44,277 nucleotides of DNA from Phycisphaerae bacterium (lineage in GTDB: Bacteria > Planctomycetota > Phycisphaerae > Phycisphaerales > UBA1924). The notes under the pieces are model-generated. The model was not told the origin of the DNA. It made no database searches and saw only the letters and a list, made by a program, of their open reading frames with translations. Each line of letters opens with the position of its first letter. The stretch's first letter is position 1. A program made the translations under genes and the position numbers. The stretch lies in contig JAUHYE010000016.1 of the NCBI GenBank assembly GCA_030426395.1, positions 1 to 44,277 on the forward strand, read 5' to 3'. Positions 6,514-34,836 of this stretch are shown here, piece by piece.

Positions 6514-8418
<1,905 letters not shown>

Positions 8419-8773: not shown

Positions 8774-8820
8774 AAACCCGCCATGCGGGCCCGCTGGGAG
8801 CGGGGGAGGGGATGGGAACC

Positions 8821-9030
8821 GTGCCCTCGGGTGCCAACGCCGTGCCCACGGGCCCGAGTTCCGTGCCTTCGGGTGCCAACTTCGTGCCCTCTGACGCGAG
8901 TTCCGCGCCATCGGAGGTGGCATCTGCGCCATCGGATGCGAGCTCCGTGCCATCGGAGGTGACATCCGTGCCCTCGGATGCGAGCTTCGTGCCCTCGGAC
9001 GTGAGTTCCGTGCCATCGGATGTGACATCC
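8821..9030. repeat. 21-bp tandem repeat array 1 (10 units)
   Basis: Ten contiguous units of exactly 21 bases run from 8821 to 9030. The consensus reads GTGCC then C/A, TCGGA, T/G, G, C/T, GAG, C/T, TCC. Units 7-10 are most alike; units 1-3 have drifted (GTGCCAAC in the second half). There are no spacers, so it is not a CRISPR array. Every frame through it is a heptapeptide repeat simply because 21 is a multiple of three; the plus strand gives SSVPSDA-like heptads and the minus strand TELASEG-like heptads. It lies about 400 bases upstream of dnaK and 108 bases past the stop of the gene ending at 9138. Confidence 0.9.
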
Positions 9031-9053
9031 GATGGCACGGAACTCACGTCCGA
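8995..9053. repeat. 59-bp near-perfect palindrome at the end of array 1
   Basis: Bases 8995-9023 are the exact reverse complement of 9025-9053, 29 bp per arm with a single unpaired base at 9024. Pairing fails at 8994/9054. The left arm is the end of the array (part of units 8 and 9 onward into unit 10), and the right arm is an inverted copy of the same sequence, so it arose by inverted duplication of about 1.4 repeat units. It could act as a very strong hairpin terminator for the minus-strand gene ending at 9138, 85 bases away, though no T-run follows. Confidence 0.9.
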
Positions 9054-9137
9054 CCCCCGCTCACGGGCTCCAGGGGCCGATTTCACAATCAAAATCCGAA
9101 CATGGCCCCGGCCGGGGCCATCCCGGGGCCCGCGGGC

Positions 9138-13197: not shown

Positions 13198-14013
13198 ATG
13201 AAGACCGCCTTCGCCCTCGTGGCCCTGGCCGCCGCCGCCACCACCGTGTCCGCCCAGAGCGACGTCGCCTACTGGTCCTTCAGCAACCAGGCCCTGCCCG
13301 GCGGCGGCTTCGGCTTCTTCGCCGACGAGTTCCCCTTCGCCGCCGAGTTCGGCGACCAGATGGGTGAGGCCACCATCGAGTTGGTCGGCGGCATCCTCGA
13401 CGAGCTCGACGTGACCGGCGGCGGCGACGAGGTGCTCCGCTGGGTCCAGTCCTTCAGTGGCACCGACCTGGGCGCCCAGTTCGGCGAGCCCAGCGGCGGC
13501 TCGCTGGCTATCCAGGGCGGCACCGACACGCTCAACAACGGCTCGCAGATCGTCCTCAACTTCAATGCGGCCGACCTCGAGAACCTGATGTTCCAGTTCG
13601 ACGCCCGCAACACCAGCACCGGCTTCCAGGACGTCACCATCGACCTGTATAACGGCGGTTCGTTCGTGTCGACGGTCGAGTCGAGCCTGATCCTGAGCAC
13701 CACGTTCGCGAGCTTCTCGTACGACATCAGCGACCTGACCGGCGTGACGGACGCCCGCATCGTCTTCACCCTCGACGGCGCGACCAGCACCAGCGGCAAC
13801 ATCCGCACCGACAACTTCTACATCACCGCAGACGCCGGCACCGGCGGCTGCCGCGCCGACCTCGACGGCGACGGCGTGCTCACGCTGTTCGACTTCCTCC
13901 AGTTCCAGAACCTCTTCGACGCCGGCGACCTGGCCGCCGACTTCGACGGCGATGGCGCGCTGACGTTGTTCGACTTCCTGGCTTTCCAGAACGAGTTCGA
14001 CGCCGGCTGCTGA
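13198..14013 (+). CDS. secreted protein with C-terminal GC-type dockerin-like repeats
   Basis: The 271-residue product has a signal peptide (MKTAFALVALAAAATTVSA, cleavage before QSD) and a GGAGAGAGA ribosome-binding site. Residues 20-215 are rich in Gly, Asp and Thr with regular beta strands (QIVLNFNAADLENLMFQFDA, VTIDLYNGGSFV, ARIVFTLDGAT), a jelly-roll-like pattern with DNFYI near the end, as in carbohydrate-binding or PEP-CTERM-type exported proteins. The C-terminus holds two dockerin-like loops (DLDGDGVLTLFDF, DFDGDGALTLFDF) and ends in GC. It shares only the C-terminal module with the gene at 528. It is monocistronic, followed by a strong terminator. Confidence 0.87.
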   Translation: MKTAFALVALAAAATTVSAQSDVAYWSFSNQALPGGGFGFFADEFPFAAEFGDQMGEATIELVGGILDELDVTGGGDEVLRWVQSFSGTDLGAQFGEPSGGSLAIQGGTDTLNNGSQIVLNFNAADLENLMFQFDARNTSTGFQDVTIDLYNGGSFVSTVESSLILSTTFASFSYDISDLTGVTDARIVFTLDGATSTSGNIRTDNFYITADAGTGGCRADLDGDGVLTLFDFLQFQNLFDAGDLAADFDGDGALTLFDFLAFQNEFDAGC

Positions 14014-16270: not shown

Positions 16271-16753
16271 GTGACGCCCACCCCCACATCTCGCTCCCCA
16301 ATCTCGAGATTCGACACCGGCTGGCCCCTCGTGCTGGCCGGCCTGGCCCTGGTGGCCTGCCTCGTGCTCATCCCCGCCTGGGAGCAGCTCGAGCAGACCC
16401 GCTTCGAGCGCGACAAGCTGCTGGCCATGGACGCCCAGGGCCGCGAGCGCATCAGGAGGCAGGCCCGCTACCTGGCCGCCCTGGAGCGCGGCGACGAGGC
16501 CCTGGTCCGCTCGCTGGCCCTCGACCAGATGAGACTCGTCCCCGCCGGCCGCACCGCCGTGCTCGAGCCCCCGCCCCCGGGGCCCATCGACATCTTCGAG
16601 CCCCTCGAGCCCGCCCCGGTGACGATCCAGGCCGTCCGCCCGGCCGACAGCGTGCTGGCCCGCCTGAGCCGCAGCGACCGGCTCCGGCCGTGGCTGCTGG
16701 GGCTGGGGGCCCTCCTGGTGCTGGTGGGGGTGCTGCCCCAGGCCCGGCGGTAG
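16271..16753 (+). CDS. small membrane coiled-coil protein, FtsB/DivIC-like in outline
   Basis: Read from GTG at 16271 the product has 160 residues: a short polar N-terminus, a membrane segment (WPLVLAGLALVACLVLIP), a charged helical stretch of about 60 residues (WEQLEQTRFERDKLLAMDAQGRER then RRQARYLAALERGDEALVRSLA), a Pro-rich linker, and a second membrane segment near the end (LRPWLLGLGALLVLVGVLP). One membrane helix followed by a coiled coil recalls the division proteins FtsB, FtsL and DivIC, but the second membrane helix is unlike them, so the assignment is only structural. The stop codon lies within the first unit of a 27-bp tandem repeat. Confidence 0.6.
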   Translation: MTPTPTSRSPISRFDTGWPLVLAGLALVACLVLIPAWEQLEQTRFERDKLLAMDAQGRERIRRQARYLAALERGDEALVRSLALDQMRLVPAGRTAVLEPPPPGPIDIFEPLEPAPVTIQAVRPADSVLARLSRSDRLRPWLLGLGALLVLVGVLPQARR

Positions 16754-16812
16754 CCGGAAATAAAGAAGGCCCGGCGGTAGCCGGAAAAGAAGAAGGCCCG
16801 GCCATCGCCGAA
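16741..16812 (+). repeat. 27-bp tandem repeat with hairpins across a stop codon
   Basis: Two nearly identical 27-base units (16741-16767, 16768-16794) and a partial third (to 16812) each start GGCCCGGC. The first two contain CCGGC-GGTA-GCCGG, a five-bp hairpin with a four-base loop, followed by an A-rich tail. The TAG of the preceding gene is in unit 1, so duplication added only 3' untranslated sequence. Tandem hairpins may protect the mRNA end. Confidence 0.75.
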
Positions 16813-16866
16813 CCCCCTCGAGAAACTTCTTCAAACCTTAGAATCAAACAGAGCAACGAGAACCTC

Positions 16867-17550
16867 TTACCCCGCCTCACTCTGGCCCACCGGCCCCTGG
16901 GCGACGATCTGGGCCTGGTTGCCCGAGCCGAAGCGAACGGTGAAGTACGCCGGGTCGCCGTCCTTGGTGCTGGTCTGGGCGGTCACAAGGTACGTGACGA
17001 CCGTGCTGTCGCCCGTCAGCGTGTCGTCGTCGAAGGTCCGCTTCTTGGCGTTCAGGAGGAAGGTATACGGCGTCTGCGGCGCGTCCTGACGCATCACCTT
17101 GTACGTCACGGCGCTGACGCCCGCGGGGTGGTCGCAGTCGAAGGTGAAGCGCAGGTCCCCGCTCTGGAGCAACTGCACCTTGAAGCCCTCGGGCGTGCCC
17201 GGGGGCGGCGCGGGGGTGCGGTCGGCCGGCTGGGGCAGCTGGGCCTCGGTGAACACCGCCGCCGGGTTGGCGGTGGTGCCGGCGAAGCCGCGGATCTGCA
17301 CGACCAGGGCCGACGCGGTCGAGCGCATCTGCGTGGCGGCCTGGCGGTACTCCTCGCCCTTGGCCTCGTACTGGGCCTTGAGCGCGTCGTACTCGGCCTT
17401 GAGTGTTTGCGCCGAGGTGTGCAGGGCGCTGAGGTTGGCCATCTGGGTCGCCTCGACGCCAATGGCCGTGCCGGCGGCCGTCCACACCGGGACGCGCACA
17501 CCGACCCAATCAATAGCTTCGGCCAGCTTCACGGGTACAACGGTACTCAT
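16867..17550 (-). CDS. helical plus FN3-like protein, paralogue A
   Basis: The 227-residue product starts at ATG 17550, seven bases after TTGGAGAT. Residues about 35-100 form an alpha-helical, coiled-coil-like segment (LHTSAQTLKAEYDALKAQYEAK). A Pro-rich linker follows (TPAPPPGTPEG), then about 100 residues of beta strands (LRFTFDCDHPAGVSAVTYKVMR, TVVTYLVTAQTS, PAYFTVRFGSG) resembling a fibronectin type III fold. There is no signal peptide or membrane segment. The gene at 28692 has the same order of parts and alignable sequence. The 5' flank holds the sixteen-unit 21-bp array 2. I recognise the general family from planctomycete-type genomes but know no function. Confidence 0.75.
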   Translation of the reverse strand: MSTVVPVKLAEAIDWVGVRVPVWTAAGTAIGVEATQMANLSALHTSAQTLKAEYDALKAQYEAKGEEYRQAATQMRSTASALVVQIRGFAGTTANPAAVFTEAQLPQPADRTPAPPPGTPEGFKVQLLQSGDLRFTFDCDHPAGVSAVTYKVMRQDAPQTPYTFLLNAKKRTFDDDTLTGDSTVVTYLVTAQTSTKDGDPAYFTVRFGSGNQAQIVAQGPVGQSEAG

Positions 17551-17848
17551 GACAAATCTCCAATATAACAATGCGAACGGGTGATGCGGCACTGGGCGCC
17601 GCCCGACATAAGAATCACGTTATCCACCGGACAACTCCCACGAGCCCGTGGCCCGCTCGCGGCCGGCCACCATGGCCGCCGCATGGTGTGGGTTATCGAG
17701 CGACCCGTGCCCGGCTCCAGCGAAAAACCTTCAAAAACCAAAAAGGCCCCCGACGCGCAAGAACTGCCGCTCCAGCCCGATAATCCCTGCCGGCGCCACC
17801 CCCAACCCCCCCAACCCCACTGGGAGCCCCCCAGGGCCGGTTTTGCCC

Positions 17849-18184
17849 GGTGCGAAGCCGGATTTGTCCTGTGCGATTCCAAATCACACCTGTGCGATCG
17901 CGGATTTGTCCTGTGTGATTCCGGATCACACCTGTGCGATCGCGGATTTGTCCTGTGTGATTCCGGATCACACCTGTGCGATCGCGGATTTGTCCTGTGC
18001 GATTGCGGATCACACCTGTGCGATCGCGGATTTGTCCTGTGTGATTGCGGATCACACCCGTGCGATCGGGGATTGGTCCTGAGTGATCCGAGATCCGTCA
18101 TGAGCGATCGGGGATCGGTCCCCAGTTATCGCGGATCGATTCTGGCCGATCCAGGATCCGTCCCGGCCGATCCGGGTTCCAACG
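17849..18184. repeat. 21-bp tandem repeat array 2 (16 units), GATC-rich
   Basis: Sixteen contiguous 21-base units run from 17849 to 18184. Between 17891 and 18058 two types alternate: one has TGTGCGATCGCGG then ATTTGTCC, the other TGTGTGATTCCGG then ATCACACC, giving a 42-base higher-order repeat. The second type has GTGTGAT and ATCACAC as a hairpin; the first contains GCGATCGC. Units after 18059 have drifted but keep GATC. I count 17 GATC in 17891-18184, where about one is expected. The 768-base stretch 17551-18318 holds no convincing gene; an open frame through the array on the minus strand is noted separately. Confidence 0.92.
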
Positions 18185-18318
18185 GCCCGGCTTTGGGGCT
18201 CCGGACGCGGCCGTGGGGATCGGCCGCAGAGACCAGCCGTCGCGCGGCCGAGCGGGAGCGGGACATCGATGGTGCTGGTGGGGTCTTGCCGCCGGGGAAA
18301 CGGTCGGGCCGGACTTGC

Positions 18319-27542: not shown

Positions 27543-28271
27543 TTACATCGGCCCGTCGAAGCTCACCTCGCACGTCCCGCTCCCATCGAGCGTCAGCTCG
27601 ACCGGCGCACCCAGCTGCCCGTCCACGATCGGCCGTGCCCGCACCTCCATCAGCTTGATGCGGTACCGCAGCGTCGGCGGGAACGCGAGGTCGCGCCCCG
27701 GGCGCTGCGGATCCTCGGGCGGGTCGAAACGCATGAAGGCGGCGGGCAGCACCATCTCGCGTCGGCCGTTGGGGGCCAGCGGGATGGTGAAGGGCGCGAC
27801 GTATCCATCGGGATTGCCCAGGACGGTTTCGTGCGTCCGCCACGCGCGGCCATCGGTGTCTGAGTACCCGATGCCGTGACGCGCGAGCGTCGAGATCGAA
27901 CCCTCGGAGAGGAGATAGCCGGTGTCGGTGTGGTTGATCAGCGTAACCCACACGGCGTGGCTGTCGGCCTCCTGGAGCAGGTCGTAGCCTTCGGCCTCGA
28001 GCCCCTTGAGCTCCTTAAGCATGGCGGCCTCGTCGCGCGAGACGAGTTCGATGTGATTACCAAACTGATACGAGCTCAACTCGGGCACAACCCGACGCAC
28101 CACGACCTCCACCTGCGTGGCCACCTCCGCAGCGTCAGGCTTCGCCGGTGGCTTGGGCACGGCCTGCTGGCCTGCCGCAGCGCGACCACCGCCCCCCATC
28201 CACCCCGCCAGCGCGACCGCGAGCCCCAGCCCCGCCGCCACGATCGCCAATGTCCACACGCTCGCTCGCAT
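27543..28271 (-). CDS. membrane-anchored exported protein, unknown function
   Basis: The 242-residue product begins MRASVWTLAIVAAGLGLAVALAGWMGGGG, an uncleaved anchor or signal. A Pro-rich linker precedes a domain of about 190 residues containing VVRRVVPELSSYQFGNHIELVSRDEAAMLKEL, HAVWVTLINHTDTGYLLSEGS and a beta-rich end (YVAPFTIPLAPNGRREMVLPAAFMRF). It has an immunoglobulin-like strand pattern. AAGGTGG is upstream of the ATG. It is convergent with EamA after a 41-base gap containing the repeat ACGGAGGCACGGAGG. Family not recognised. Confidence 0.7.
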   Translation of the reverse strand: MRASVWTLAIVAAGLGLAVALAGWMGGGGRAAAGQQAVPKPPAKPDAAEVATQVEVVVRRVVPELSSYQFGNHIELVSRDEAAMLKELKGLEAEGYDLLQEADSHAVWVTLINHTDTGYLLSEGSISTLARHGIGYSDTDGRAWRTHETVLGNPDGYVAPFTIPLAPNGRREMVLPAAFMRFDPPEDPQRPGRDLAFPPTLRYRIKLMEVRARPIVDGQLGAPVELTLDGSGTCEVSFDGPM

Positions 28272-28350
28272 GCCCGCCACCTTCCATAAGAACCGCTCCT
28301 CGGCATTGTCGCCGAAATGGCTCCGCGATGCAAGACGAAATGGCCCGGCC

Positions 28351-28602
28351 GCCAACTTCGGGCCCTCCCCCAGAGCCGTACCCGCTCCAACGCCGCCCGC
28401 CCCCGCCCCAAACCCGCCCGGCTCCACCCCAGAACCCCGCGCCTCCACCCCAAAGGCCCGTGCCTTCACCGTGAAGGCACGGGCCTTTGCCCCGAGAACG
28501 CCCGTTCCCGGGCCCTATCCGCCCGGCTTCGCCCCTGGGAGCGCAGCTTCTGCGCCCGAGGCGGCCGTCTTCATCCCCGGTGCGATTCTGACTGGAGTCC
28601 GC
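28351..28602. repeat. 21-bp tandem repeat array 3 (about 12 units)
   Basis: Twelve degenerate units of exactly 21 bases fill 28351-28602 in the 420-base gap before the gene at 28692. The loose consensus is CCGCCCGGCTTC, C or G, CCCC and four variable bases. The unit at 28351 contains GCCAACTTCGGGCCCT, close to GCCAACTTCGTGCCCT of array 1. Plus-strand heptads such as RAVPAPT, ANFGPSP and SAASAPE resemble array 1 heptads. It is more diverged than arrays 1 and 2. There is no further gene in the gap. Confidence 0.75.
28451..28489. repeat. perfect 18-bp hairpin within array 3
   Basis: Bases 28451-28468 (CAAAGGCCCGTGCCTTCA) are the exact reverse complement of 28472-28489, with the loop CCG. As in array 1, the hairpin arises where adjacent 21-bp units face each other. 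A T-run does not follow. Confidence 0.85.
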
Positions 28603-28691
28603 CCGCCAACGGCCCGATGACCGGGAGGACCCAGCCCGCCACCGGGCGGAACGCTCGACCCGCGACGCGGGGTTTCAGAAAGGACACGACC

Positions 28692-29393
28692 ATGGCCCGA
28701 CGCGCCCCTAAGCCCGACGCCCAGTTCCTGCTCAAGGCCCGATTGCTCGTCAAGCGGTGGCAGGAGCAGGGGCCCGAGACGCTGGGCCTCGATCCCGCCC
28801 ACGTCGACGCGCTGGAGGATCTGGTCGAGCAGGCCGGCGAATCGAGCGAGGCGTACCGCCGGCTGTACGCCGCGGCCCTGGCGGCCAACCAGGACCGCCG
28901 CACCGCCATGAAGCGGGCCCGCGCCACCTTCGGATCCCTGGTCACGGCCATCGACGCCCGCGCCAAGTACACCGGCGACCAGAAGCTGTACGGCCGGGCC
29001 TTCCTCAAGCCGCCCGCCGCGCCCGCCCCGCGGCCGGCGCCCACCACCCCGGGCCACGCCGAGCTGGCCCTGCGCAAGGGCGGGCCCATCGAGGTGCGGT
29101 TCAAGGGCACCGGCGAGGGCGTGATGTACGAGATCCAGCGCCAGGTGGTCGGGCTGGACAGGAGGGAGGGCCCGTGGGCCACCGTGGCCAACGGCGCGGG
29201 CAAGCGCTGGGTCGACCAGTGCCCGCCCAGCGGCGTCTTAGAAGTGCGCTACCGGGCGCGCGCGATGCGGCCTGGCCAAAAGGGGCCGTTCGGACCCGCG
29301 AGCGTGAGCGAGTGGTCGCTGGCCGTCGCGGCGACGTTCGGGTGCGGGCCGCAAGTGGGGGTGGTGGAACTGGCGCCGGGGCGCGCGGCGTAG
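28692..29393 (+). CDS. helical plus FN3-like protein, paralogue B
   Basis: The 233-residue product starts at ATG 28692, seven bases after AAAGGA. Its basic N-terminus (MARRAPKPDAQFLLKARLLVKRW) leads to a helical domain of about 75 residues (ALEDLVEQAGESSEAYRRLY, RTAMKRARATFGSLVTAID), a Pro/Ala linker (PAAPAPRPAPTTPG) and a beta-rich FN3-like domain (IEVRFKGTGEGVMYEIQRQV, VLEVRYRARA, SEWSLAVAATFG). The order of domains and spacing match paralogue A at 16867. It lacks export signals, and the high Arg/Lys content of the first half would suit nucleic-acid contact, though that is inference. Array 3 ends 90 bases upstream. Confidence 0.75.
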   Translation: MARRAPKPDAQFLLKARLLVKRWQEQGPETLGLDPAHVDALEDLVEQAGESSEAYRRLYAAALAANQDRRTAMKRARATFGSLVTAIDARAKYTGDQKLYGRAFLKPPAAPAPRPAPTTPGHAELALRKGGPIEVRFKGTGEGVMYEIQRQVVGLDRREGPWATVANGAGKRWVDQCPPSGVLEVRYRARAMRPGQKGPFGPASVSEWSLAVAATFGCGPQVGVVELAPGRAA

Positions 29394-29416
29394 AGGGATC
29401 GCGTCCGCTCGGATGC

Positions 29417-30208
29417 TCAGGGATCCAGCGGCGGCGGCGTGTTGGGGAGCGTCACGTCCTCGCCCATCAGCCAGCGCAGCGCGGCCTCGGGCGGGCGGAC
29501 GATGAACGCAACCTCTCGGCCGTTGCTCGCATCGCCATCGCCGTCCCAGACCGCGACGATCATGCCCACCAGTTCCCATCGGCCCGCGACTCGTCGCCCG
29601 ACGAACGAACCCGACCAGCCGGCCATATCGAATCCGCCGCGCCGGATGGTGACGTAGACATTGTCGGGGAACTCCAACGTACTGGCTCGGGCCTTGACCC
29701 GACGGAGGGGAACACGCTCGAAGCGCCCGGCCGGGGTCTCGCAGACGACGTAGAGGCGCTCGCCCCATGCGGGCTCGACGGTTGACACCTTCCAATCCAC
29801 CGGCGCCCCGCCATCGAGAGGCTCCTCGGCCTCGAACGCCAACCAGTCCTGGCCGTGTTCGTCCAGGTCCCGCTGCGTCATGGCGTCAGCGGTTTCGTCG
29901 GCGGCCAGGGGCGAGAACGAACCCATGCCCGCGACGGCGATGGGGACCGAGCCGTCGCGGAAGACGGCGTACGGCGCCTGGAACCCCCAGAACGATCCGT
30001 CGAATCCGTGGGCCACCGTGATCGCTCGACGGCCACGGACGATGGCCTGCGAACGGGCGACAGCAAAGTCGGCATCCTCACCGTCGGCAACGCCCACCGG
30101 CAGCACGTACGTGCGCACCGGTGCCGGCCAAGACTTGAACGGTGGAGCGGCGCAGCCGCCAAGCATCGCACAAAGCAGCACTGCCAACATCGGGCGAGCG
30201 TCACGCAT
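29417..30208 (-). CDS. trypsin-like serine protease lipoprotein
   Basis: The 263-residue product has a lipoprotein signal (MLAVLLCAMLGGC, lipid at C19) and GGAGGGGG before the ATG at 30208. The fold of trypsin can be traced: ITVAHGFDG supplies His67 in the place of the TAAHC His, DWLAFEAEEPL supplies Asp121, and GWSGSFVGRR with ELVGMIVAVWD supplies Ser199 with the oxyanion-loop Gly197. The Gly after the Ser (GSGG in active enzymes) is kept as Gly200, but Ser201 replaces the second Gly. All three triad residues are therefore present, so it may be an active, outer-membrane or cytoplasmic-membrane anchored protease. The assignment is from motif reading only. Confidence 0.6.
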   Translation of the reverse strand: MRDARPMLAVLLCAMLGGCAAPPFKSWPAPVRTYVLPVGVADGEDADFAVARSQAIVRGRRAITVAHGFDGSFWGFQAPYAVFRDGSVPIAVAGMGSFSPLAADETADAMTQRDLDEHGQDWLAFEAEEPLDGGAPVDWKVSTVEPAWGERLYVVCETPAGRFERVPLRRVKARASTLEFPDNVYVTIRRGGFDMAGWSGSFVGRRVAGRWELVGMIVAVWDGDGDASNGREVAFIVRPPEAALRWLMGEDVTLPNTPPPLDP

Positions 30209-34763: not shown

Positions 34764-34836
34764 TAGGGGCGCAGGGACTCGAACCCTGGACCTGCGGATT
34801 AAAAGTCCGATGCTCTACCAACTGAGCTACACCCCC
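34764..34836 (-). tRNA. tRNA-Lys (anticodon UUU)
   Basis: On the minus strand the 73-base cloverleaf is complete: acceptor GGGGGTG pairs with CGCCCCT (one or two G-U pairs), D stem GCTC/GAGC with AGTTGGTA loop, anticodon arm CGGA-CTTTTAA-TCCG with anticodon TTT, T arm CAGGG-TTCGAGT-CCCTG and discriminator A. CCA is not encoded. It is 43 bases from the SNF2 helicase start on the same strand and so may be co-transcribed with it. Confidence 0.95.

Follow-up and report, generated by a model that had tools for sequence, protein, structure and literature searches.

Overall, our data point to an undescribed two-part genetic module of planctomycete bacteria (Planctomycetota), in which a gene of an unnamed family is often accompanied by its own tandem array on the 5′ side. 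We consider it highly probable (about 0.9) that this link between gene and array holds and that it reaches beyond the window, by which we mean the whole 44,277-nt stretch of Phycisphaerae DNA analyzed here. It is unusual for a gene family to be linked to an upstream array whose period, but not whose sequence, persists among the families and classes of a phylum, and such a link is invisible to sequence searches; neither the array-gene pairing nor a name for the family was found in the libraries (Pfam, NCBIfam, PADLOC and Rfam) or the literature searched. Whether the protein reads its array or the arrays are mobile, a nameless family that some genomes carry in dozens of copies gains a testable handle.

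Genes and arrays of the window

A sequence-only reading of this DNA had proposed two genes of one unnamed helical and FN3-like family, each with an array of exact 21-bp units on its 5′ side. Both genes are present at the proposed lengths, and both have the array (Table 1). The unit length is indeed exactly 21 bp, but the units are not identical: TRF matches at period 21 were 75-80% for array 3, 70% for array 1 and 66% for array 2, which reached 93% at period 42. Additionally, the window holds a third array that adjoins no family gene. When the window was scanned at lags 15-49 (threshold 0.6), lag 21 was marked only at 8807-9079, 17820-18202 and 28344-28531, the first two of which were also marked by lag 42, and the only other match was lag 27 at 16674-16824. 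The near end of array 2 lies 281 bp from the start of gene A. Array 3 is flanked by gene B and by a divergent reading frame, the start of which was placed by eye at about 28273 and by our gene-calling script at 28427, within the array. Rfam gave no match at gathering scores in the window arrays, the sole match in the window being a tRNA at 34764-34836.

Table 1. Positions of the family genes, arrays and associated elements in the window.
Feature	Coordinates	Strand	Description
Gene B	28692..29393	+	233 aa; N-terminal helices 9-26 and 35-94; Pro-rich linker; FN3-like domain 123-215
Array 3 core	28364..28506	no strand	21-bp period; decayed units to about 28600 (by eye)
Inverted repeat, 19 bp, 1-nt loop	28451..28489	no strand	inside array 3
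Leader, array 3 core to gene B	28507..28691	+	aligns with the leader of the G003 ortholog
Gene A	16867..17550	-	227 aa; paralog of gene B
Array 2 core	17832..18180	no strand	on the 5′ side of gene A; 21-bp units grouped into a higher-order unit of 42 bp
Array 1	8819..9058	no strand	21-bp period; no family gene adjoining

Two smaller observations concern the surroundings of these features. Array 1 lies on the 5′ side of an Hsp70 gene (6514-8418), at a distance of 400 bp, and a perfect inverted repeat of 29 bp is found towards the right end of the array (about 8995-9053). Near the 3′ end of gene A, a 27-bp repeat of 2.3 copies (16740-16802) overlaps the end of a short open reading frame (16331-16753).

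A search of its own genome with gene B gave 65 matches at E ≤1, of which 63 had E ≤7e-5, and the family gave 2, 25, 45, 43, 21 and 37 matches in six congeners (E 0.001). Genes A and B are distant paralogs (BLASTP E 1e-4), and a 28-member profile built with gene B and without gene A found gene A at E 6e-43. The structure prediction of gene B that the sequence-only reading had called for gave a helical half and an FN3-like domain: the AlphaFold model (pLDDT 91) consists of a short helix, a 60-residue helix and the FN3-like domain. The FN3 fold of the C-terminal domain was supported by Foldseek FN3 matches from E 2.4e-4 and by a match of the family profile to the Fn3-like protein 3mpc (E 2.2e-4). 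Most of the Foldseek matches listed (50 each) belonged to FN3 proteins, cytokine receptors and phage tail tips among them, and their TM-scores to the whole protein did not exceed 0.36. The C-terminal half is thus predicted to share the fibronectin type III fold, whereas here it is fused to a helical half that has no match.

Profile libraries added little to this picture. Pfam assigned no family to gene B and no FN3 model to any of 28 members at E 0.1; its matches at E ≤0.1 were confined to one member each, the best being HalX (E 0.0012, 1/28). The best-supported NCBIfam match was PQLLE (NF052641), which was weakly found in 4 of 28 members (best E 2.3e-5) and scored 24 bits in the window's own genome and 21 bits at locus L106, against a curated cut-off of 80 bits. 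No recognized DNA-binding domain emerged, as Pfam, NCBIfam and PADLOC gave weak one-off matches and the PDB gave FN3-type ones. Neither a transposase, recombinase or nuclease match (Pfam and NCBIfam) nor a ToxN, CptN or TenpN endoribonuclease match (Pfam, NCBIfam and PADLOC) was found in the family. Taken together, the family proteins are basic (median pI 8.3 versus 5.5), with a median net charge of 0 over the first 100 residues, and gene A has a pI of 5.2.

A distant subfamily (alignment A3, six rows) aligned with alignment A1 over 200 columns at 98.7% probability (HHalign E 4e-16), and its model, of lower confidence (pLDDT 78), agrees with that of gene B in the succession of helices and strands. 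A search with this subfamily matched 18 of 392 genomes. We presume that it also has relatives in Bacteroidota and Spirochaetota. No relatives were found in plasmids, phages or viral contigs for the queries tried.

Linkage of arrays to family genes

The proposed link would have been undermined if such arrays lay equally often beside random genes, and this was not the case. In the window's own genome (G000), an array stood within 700 bp on the 5′ side of 14/28 family genes versus 27/644 other genes, a count from which genes at stretch ends were dropped (reducing the family genes from 31 to 28). On the 3′ side, arrays were found for 0/28 family genes and 32/644 other genes. When six genomes were pooled, with the G003 and G006 regions chosen around family genes and the G000 stretches taken from contigs holding one, 34/86 family genes and 68/1759 other genes had a 5′ array; only 2/86 family genes had a 3′ array, and 52/86 had no 5′ array at the threshold used. 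Family genes have longer upstream spacers, and we therefore stratified by spacer length: the Mantel-Haenszel odds ratio was 6.6 for G000 (chi-square 18.5) and 4.4 for the pooled genomes (chi-square 33.3), with gene age and mobility uncontrolled in these strata. By genome, the family genes with a 5′ array numbered 14/28 in G000, 10/23 in G006, 5/19 in G003, 2/11 in G004, 1/3 in G005 and 2/2 in G016; the enrichment in G004 is small. Genes were called throughout by a custom codon-usage script.

At the 30 best loci of gene B in its own genome, a lag-21 array was found 13 times at threshold 0.65, always on the 5′ side, with loci cut by a contig end counted as lacking one; the control lags 18, 20, 22 and 24 gave no array. 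Lowering the threshold to 0.55 brought up a few weak stretches on the 3′ side too. In G003, the array at the ortholog of gene B (71% identity) is decayed and falls below the threshold, and in several ortholog pairs of the family the array is absent on both sides. No clear link to another family emerged beside the arrays: the next largest cluster, of 113 genes and, as judged by the size of the cluster, probably consisting of dockerin-tailed proteins, gave a 5′ to 3′ ratio of 13:7.

The linkage recurs in other classes and over a GC range of 36-73%, which we regard as well supported. Homologs elsewhere might have lacked 21-bp repeats upstream. Instead, among 20 upstream regions of the distant subfamily from nine genomes (1 kb each), 13 carried an array of period 21 or 42, one an array of period 20 and six none; all remaining periods from 12 to 45 were absent from these pieces. 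These regions were picked from the listed matches before their upstream sequence was seen, mostly as the best ones beyond the four loci given below, and so form a non-random sample. The identical scan of eight genomes (six of the genus, G008 and G016) gave 39/83 family genes and 107/2021 other genes. The binomial probability of 13/20 is 1.4e-12 at the latter rate and 2.6e-8 at the rate of G006, the highest of the single genomes, although these control rates come from eight genomes other than the nine sampled and G006 was itself sampled around family genes. Four distant-subfamily loci lie outside the 20, two with an array (L106 and L116) and two without at the threshold used (L105 and L047).

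Beyond the first 30 loci, 14 of 49 showed a lag-21 array at 0.62, each 5′ of the member (L033, L038, L040, L041, L042, L054, L058, L059, L060, L102, L103, L106, L116 and L120); L106 belongs to another class. This set of 49 includes one locus of the own genome (L051), and many of the others are just domain matches in long proteins. Arrays of 20 bp precede the family members at L239 and L046 (G031 and G027, of one genus) and L043 (G018). Among eleven named loci, four have a 5′ array of period 21 or 42 and seven do not, two of the seven being partial matches. A 23-bp tandem array (0.94) was seen 3′ of a family member in G012 (L038:1207-1351).

Arrays of this period are not confined to family genes. 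In 1.60 Mb of G000 (803 kb) and G004 (800 kb), we counted 55 guarded arrays of period 21 and 51 of period 42, compared with 0-7 for each other period between 12 and 45 and none at 14, 16, 17, 19, 20, 22, 23, 25 or 26; the arrays therefore form a genome-wide class. Of the 55, 40 lie mostly outside called genes and 15 are at least half covered by them. The gene-plus-array link is supported, but the simple picture of a single cassette does not cover all arrays: 37/98 arrays lie 5′ of a family gene, 61/98 are not within 700 bp 5′ of one, and one array occurs twice in the genome, in one case with no family gene. Arrays were seen in the sampled genomes with at least 21 family copies and not in those with 0-2: there were 42 in G000 (68 family matches), 13 in G004 (43), 4 in 200 kb of G005 (21) and 3 in 80 kb of G016 (25), versus none in 200 kb of G001 (two family genes, threshold 0.65) and none in the small samples, 162 kb together, of three family-free genomes. 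Among G000, G004, G005 and G016, array density shows no steady increase with copy number.

Array units and a putative DNA platform

Family-linked arrays contain about 4-18 units, mostly outside called genes and within about 700 bp of the start codon. The unit is 21 bp long, or 20 bp in a few members, and its sequence is private to nearly every locus: among 102 sampled arrays, four pairs reached 18/21 in the unit, two of them within one genome, and of the four, one is an ortholog pair and one is of low complexity. The variability of the units has a 21-bp component that exceeds shuffles; a 10.5-bp component was not found (p 0.3). A 7-bp component also lay above shuffles (p 0.001). For each gap there were 9.8 mismatches in array blocks (n = 183), compared with 2.9 in leader pairs (n = 33) and 2.8 in orthologous spacers (n = 41), although array detection needs register, which favors few gaps. 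The dyad symmetry of the consensus unit was above shuffles (12.96 versus 11.29, z 7.8, 52 arrays), an excess that was small by another count (4.8 versus 4.4 pairs, 73 arrays), and pair covariation in the units was weak (z 2.1).

Inverted repeats scoring at least 11 were found in 33/102 arrays versus 5/90 control spacers of similar length, including 15/41 family-linked arrays, in 10 of which they lay in the half nearest the gene (in gene orientation). Hairpin caps just outside the array ends showed no clear excess; the whole-array count covers hairpins inside the last units.

We tentatively propose, at somewhat less than even odds, that the array serves as a DNA platform that sets the expression of the adjacent gene or marks it. 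A protein would bind once per two helical turns, so that bound copies would line up along a single face of the DNA, and the array-bound protein would then act on the adjoining gene. The likeliest ligand would be the family protein itself. We favor a DNA-protein platform because the period corresponds to two helical turns, gaps are few, dyad symmetry is in excess, the proteins are basic and the arrays are positioned 5′. The 20-bp arrays also count for it, since 20 is not a multiple of 3 and both 20 and 21 are near two helical turns. Unit variation free of a 3-bp rhythm, the recurrence of arrays among distant members and their restriction to sampled genomes with at least 21 family copies are further points in favor. 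Against it we count the lack of a recognized DNA-binding domain, the net charge of 0 over the first 100 residues and the acidic pI of gene A, as well as the 61/98 unlinked arrays, the 52/86 genes without an array and the missing 10.5-bp component. The small size of the dyad excess, the weak covariation, the weak enrichment in G004 and the unsteady relation of density to copy number likewise weigh against the platform.

Because the units are private, a pairing specific to each paralog is favored within the platform reading: each paralog may be matched to its own unit, so that the paralogs of one genome would avoid cross-talk. In its full form, this idea is doubtful. It holds that each paralog recognizes its own 21-bp array, so that one genome would contain tens of protein-DNA (or protein-RNA) pairs, mutually orthogonal and co-diverging, while the phylum keeps only the two-helical-turn spacing; the result might be a self-recognition or self-regulating module of a type absent from the sources searched. 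If the protein does read its own array, nature would here provide a collection of orthogonal recognition pairs. Arrays that lack a family gene might serve as additional targets, or they might be copies that have moved or traces of genes since lost.

A comparable layout is known from the iteron arrays of plasmid replication origins, in which direct repeats about two helical turns apart lie beside the gene of the protein that binds them. In contrast, the arrays described here are chromosomal, number tens of copies per genome and adjoin no replication protein match.

Turnover, possible movement and other explanations

Alternatively, the array, alone or together with the FN3 gene, could be a mobile or selfish element, in which the gene is a partner or passenger and gene-less arrays are non-autonomous copies. 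We regard this explanation as unlikely; if the arrays were mobile, they would represent a new kind of bacterial dispersal. Two G000 arrays, of which C19 precedes a family gene and C106 stands without one, have 20/21 of the unit in common and align at 82% over 235 bp, comprising the array and its end hairpin, while the rest of the compared stretches has no match. Moreover, the 89 bp that separate orthologous genes in G004 correspond in G000 (C88, around L026) to 3.4 kb, which contain an array, a family gene and a gene of 573 codons. Common units with mostly unmatched flanks likewise suit a moving element, and such a case spans three species: C43:19834-20127, G004:415566-415813 and G003_L176:9126-9417, none with a family gene, have the unit core ACTCCTCC[CT]GACGC in common, and their flanks (3 kb; for G003 1.3 kb on one side) do not match apart from tens of bases at the left edge.

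The gene neighborhoods bear on movement in both directions. A neighbor was kept for 9/23 family orthologs of at least 60% identity, versus 115/121 other genes in that comparison, a figure biased by how the regions were fetched. The less biased comparison of G000 with G004 gave 58/60 other genes, and the one family ortholog at this identity kept its neighbor too (1/1). The 9/23 may be too low, since the members in G003 and G006 were only partly sampled (20 regions each) and some pairs may therefore be wrong. In the ortholog pairs listed, which are examples and not a count, the alignment often starts inside the array or close to it and ends around the stop codon: gene B and its G003 ortholog align at 75% from -305 to 10 bp past the stop, and pairs with G006 align from -430 to -32 (C25|28) and from -307 to +2 (C182|48). 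Farther out, however, gene B has a flank in common with its ortholog (a 3.1-kb block, 86%, from 1.5 kb past the start codon), as do several other family orthologs; therefore, not all members stand in new contexts. Further against movement, the family matched no transposase, recombinase or nuclease, no target-site duplications were demonstrated, only four array pairs reach 18/21, unlike a spreading element, and the single query tried against plasmids and phages had no match.

REPIN-RAYT systems likewise have dispersed extragenic repeats, of which some adjoin a member of one gene family and some stand alone. Our family, however, has no tyrosine transposase match, its repeats are tandem arrays rather than doublets, and the unit differs at nearly every locus instead of being common to many genome sites.

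It is improbable, in our judgment, that the arrays are neutral minisatellites, for which 21 bp would be the slippage length of the lineage and which would gather in the long spacers of fast-changing regions that hold these genes. Turnover is visible: in an orthologous spacer of C159b and G004, the flanks and the array ends align, but the array bodies are unrelated 21-phase repeats. Arrays also adjoin many other genes, and 42-bp higher-order units, clearly stronger in 8/52 arrays, are expected from slippage. Nevertheless, the association persists in the spacer-length strata (subject to gene age and mobility), almost always concerns the 5′ side and reappears in other classes with GC contents of 36-73%. 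Gaps are depleted, though register-dependent detection favors that, and 200 kb of G001 yielded no array at 0.65 despite two family genes. Prokaryotic satellites have been described as tandem repeats that include scattered non-coding families in few species (PMC6749651); the part of that source considered here mentions no 21-bp class tied to a gene family.

We find it still harder to credit that the array is transcribed into a repeat RNA that binds and controls the neighboring protein, as in type III toxin-antitoxin systems. Such loci, among them ToxIN, CptIN and TenpIN, resemble ours in that a tandem repeat array immediately precedes the protein gene. This order of array and then gene was found for part of our family (34/86, and 13/20 distant members). 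The excess of inverted repeats, with 10 of 15 in the gene-side half, is in line with a repeat RNA as well, and in some of our loci a hairpin may lie between array and gene. Their features, as listed in the portion of PMC8860590 considered here, include a hairpin terminator in this position; we found no terminator in 28270-29430 by a scan requiring a loop of 3-8, whereas the array 3 hairpin has a loop of 1. Our protein is predicted to be helical and FN3-like, with no toxin-family match. Mismatches of G:T and A:C on the gene strand were about equal (67:72, 26 arrays), so there is no wobble asymmetry or other sign of RNA pairing. Unit hairpins, which we rejected as a general feature, reached p ≤0.05 in just 7/65 arrays, and most arrays have no family gene behind them.

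Finally, we rejected arrays that encode heptad-like peptides as very improbable: 21 is a multiple of 3, the gene B frame is open through array 3 (28317-29393) and 15/55 arrays are at least half covered by called genes, but unit variation has no codon rhythm (3-bp component 0.08 observed versus 0.10 shuffled), 20-bp arrays exist and 40/55 arrays lie mostly outside called genes.

Elsewhere in the window, 81-bp near-repeats at 1119-1268 and 13854-14007 resemble what we take to be a dockerin-type tail, and a tail pattern of this kind was matched by 125/1975 called genes in our samples.
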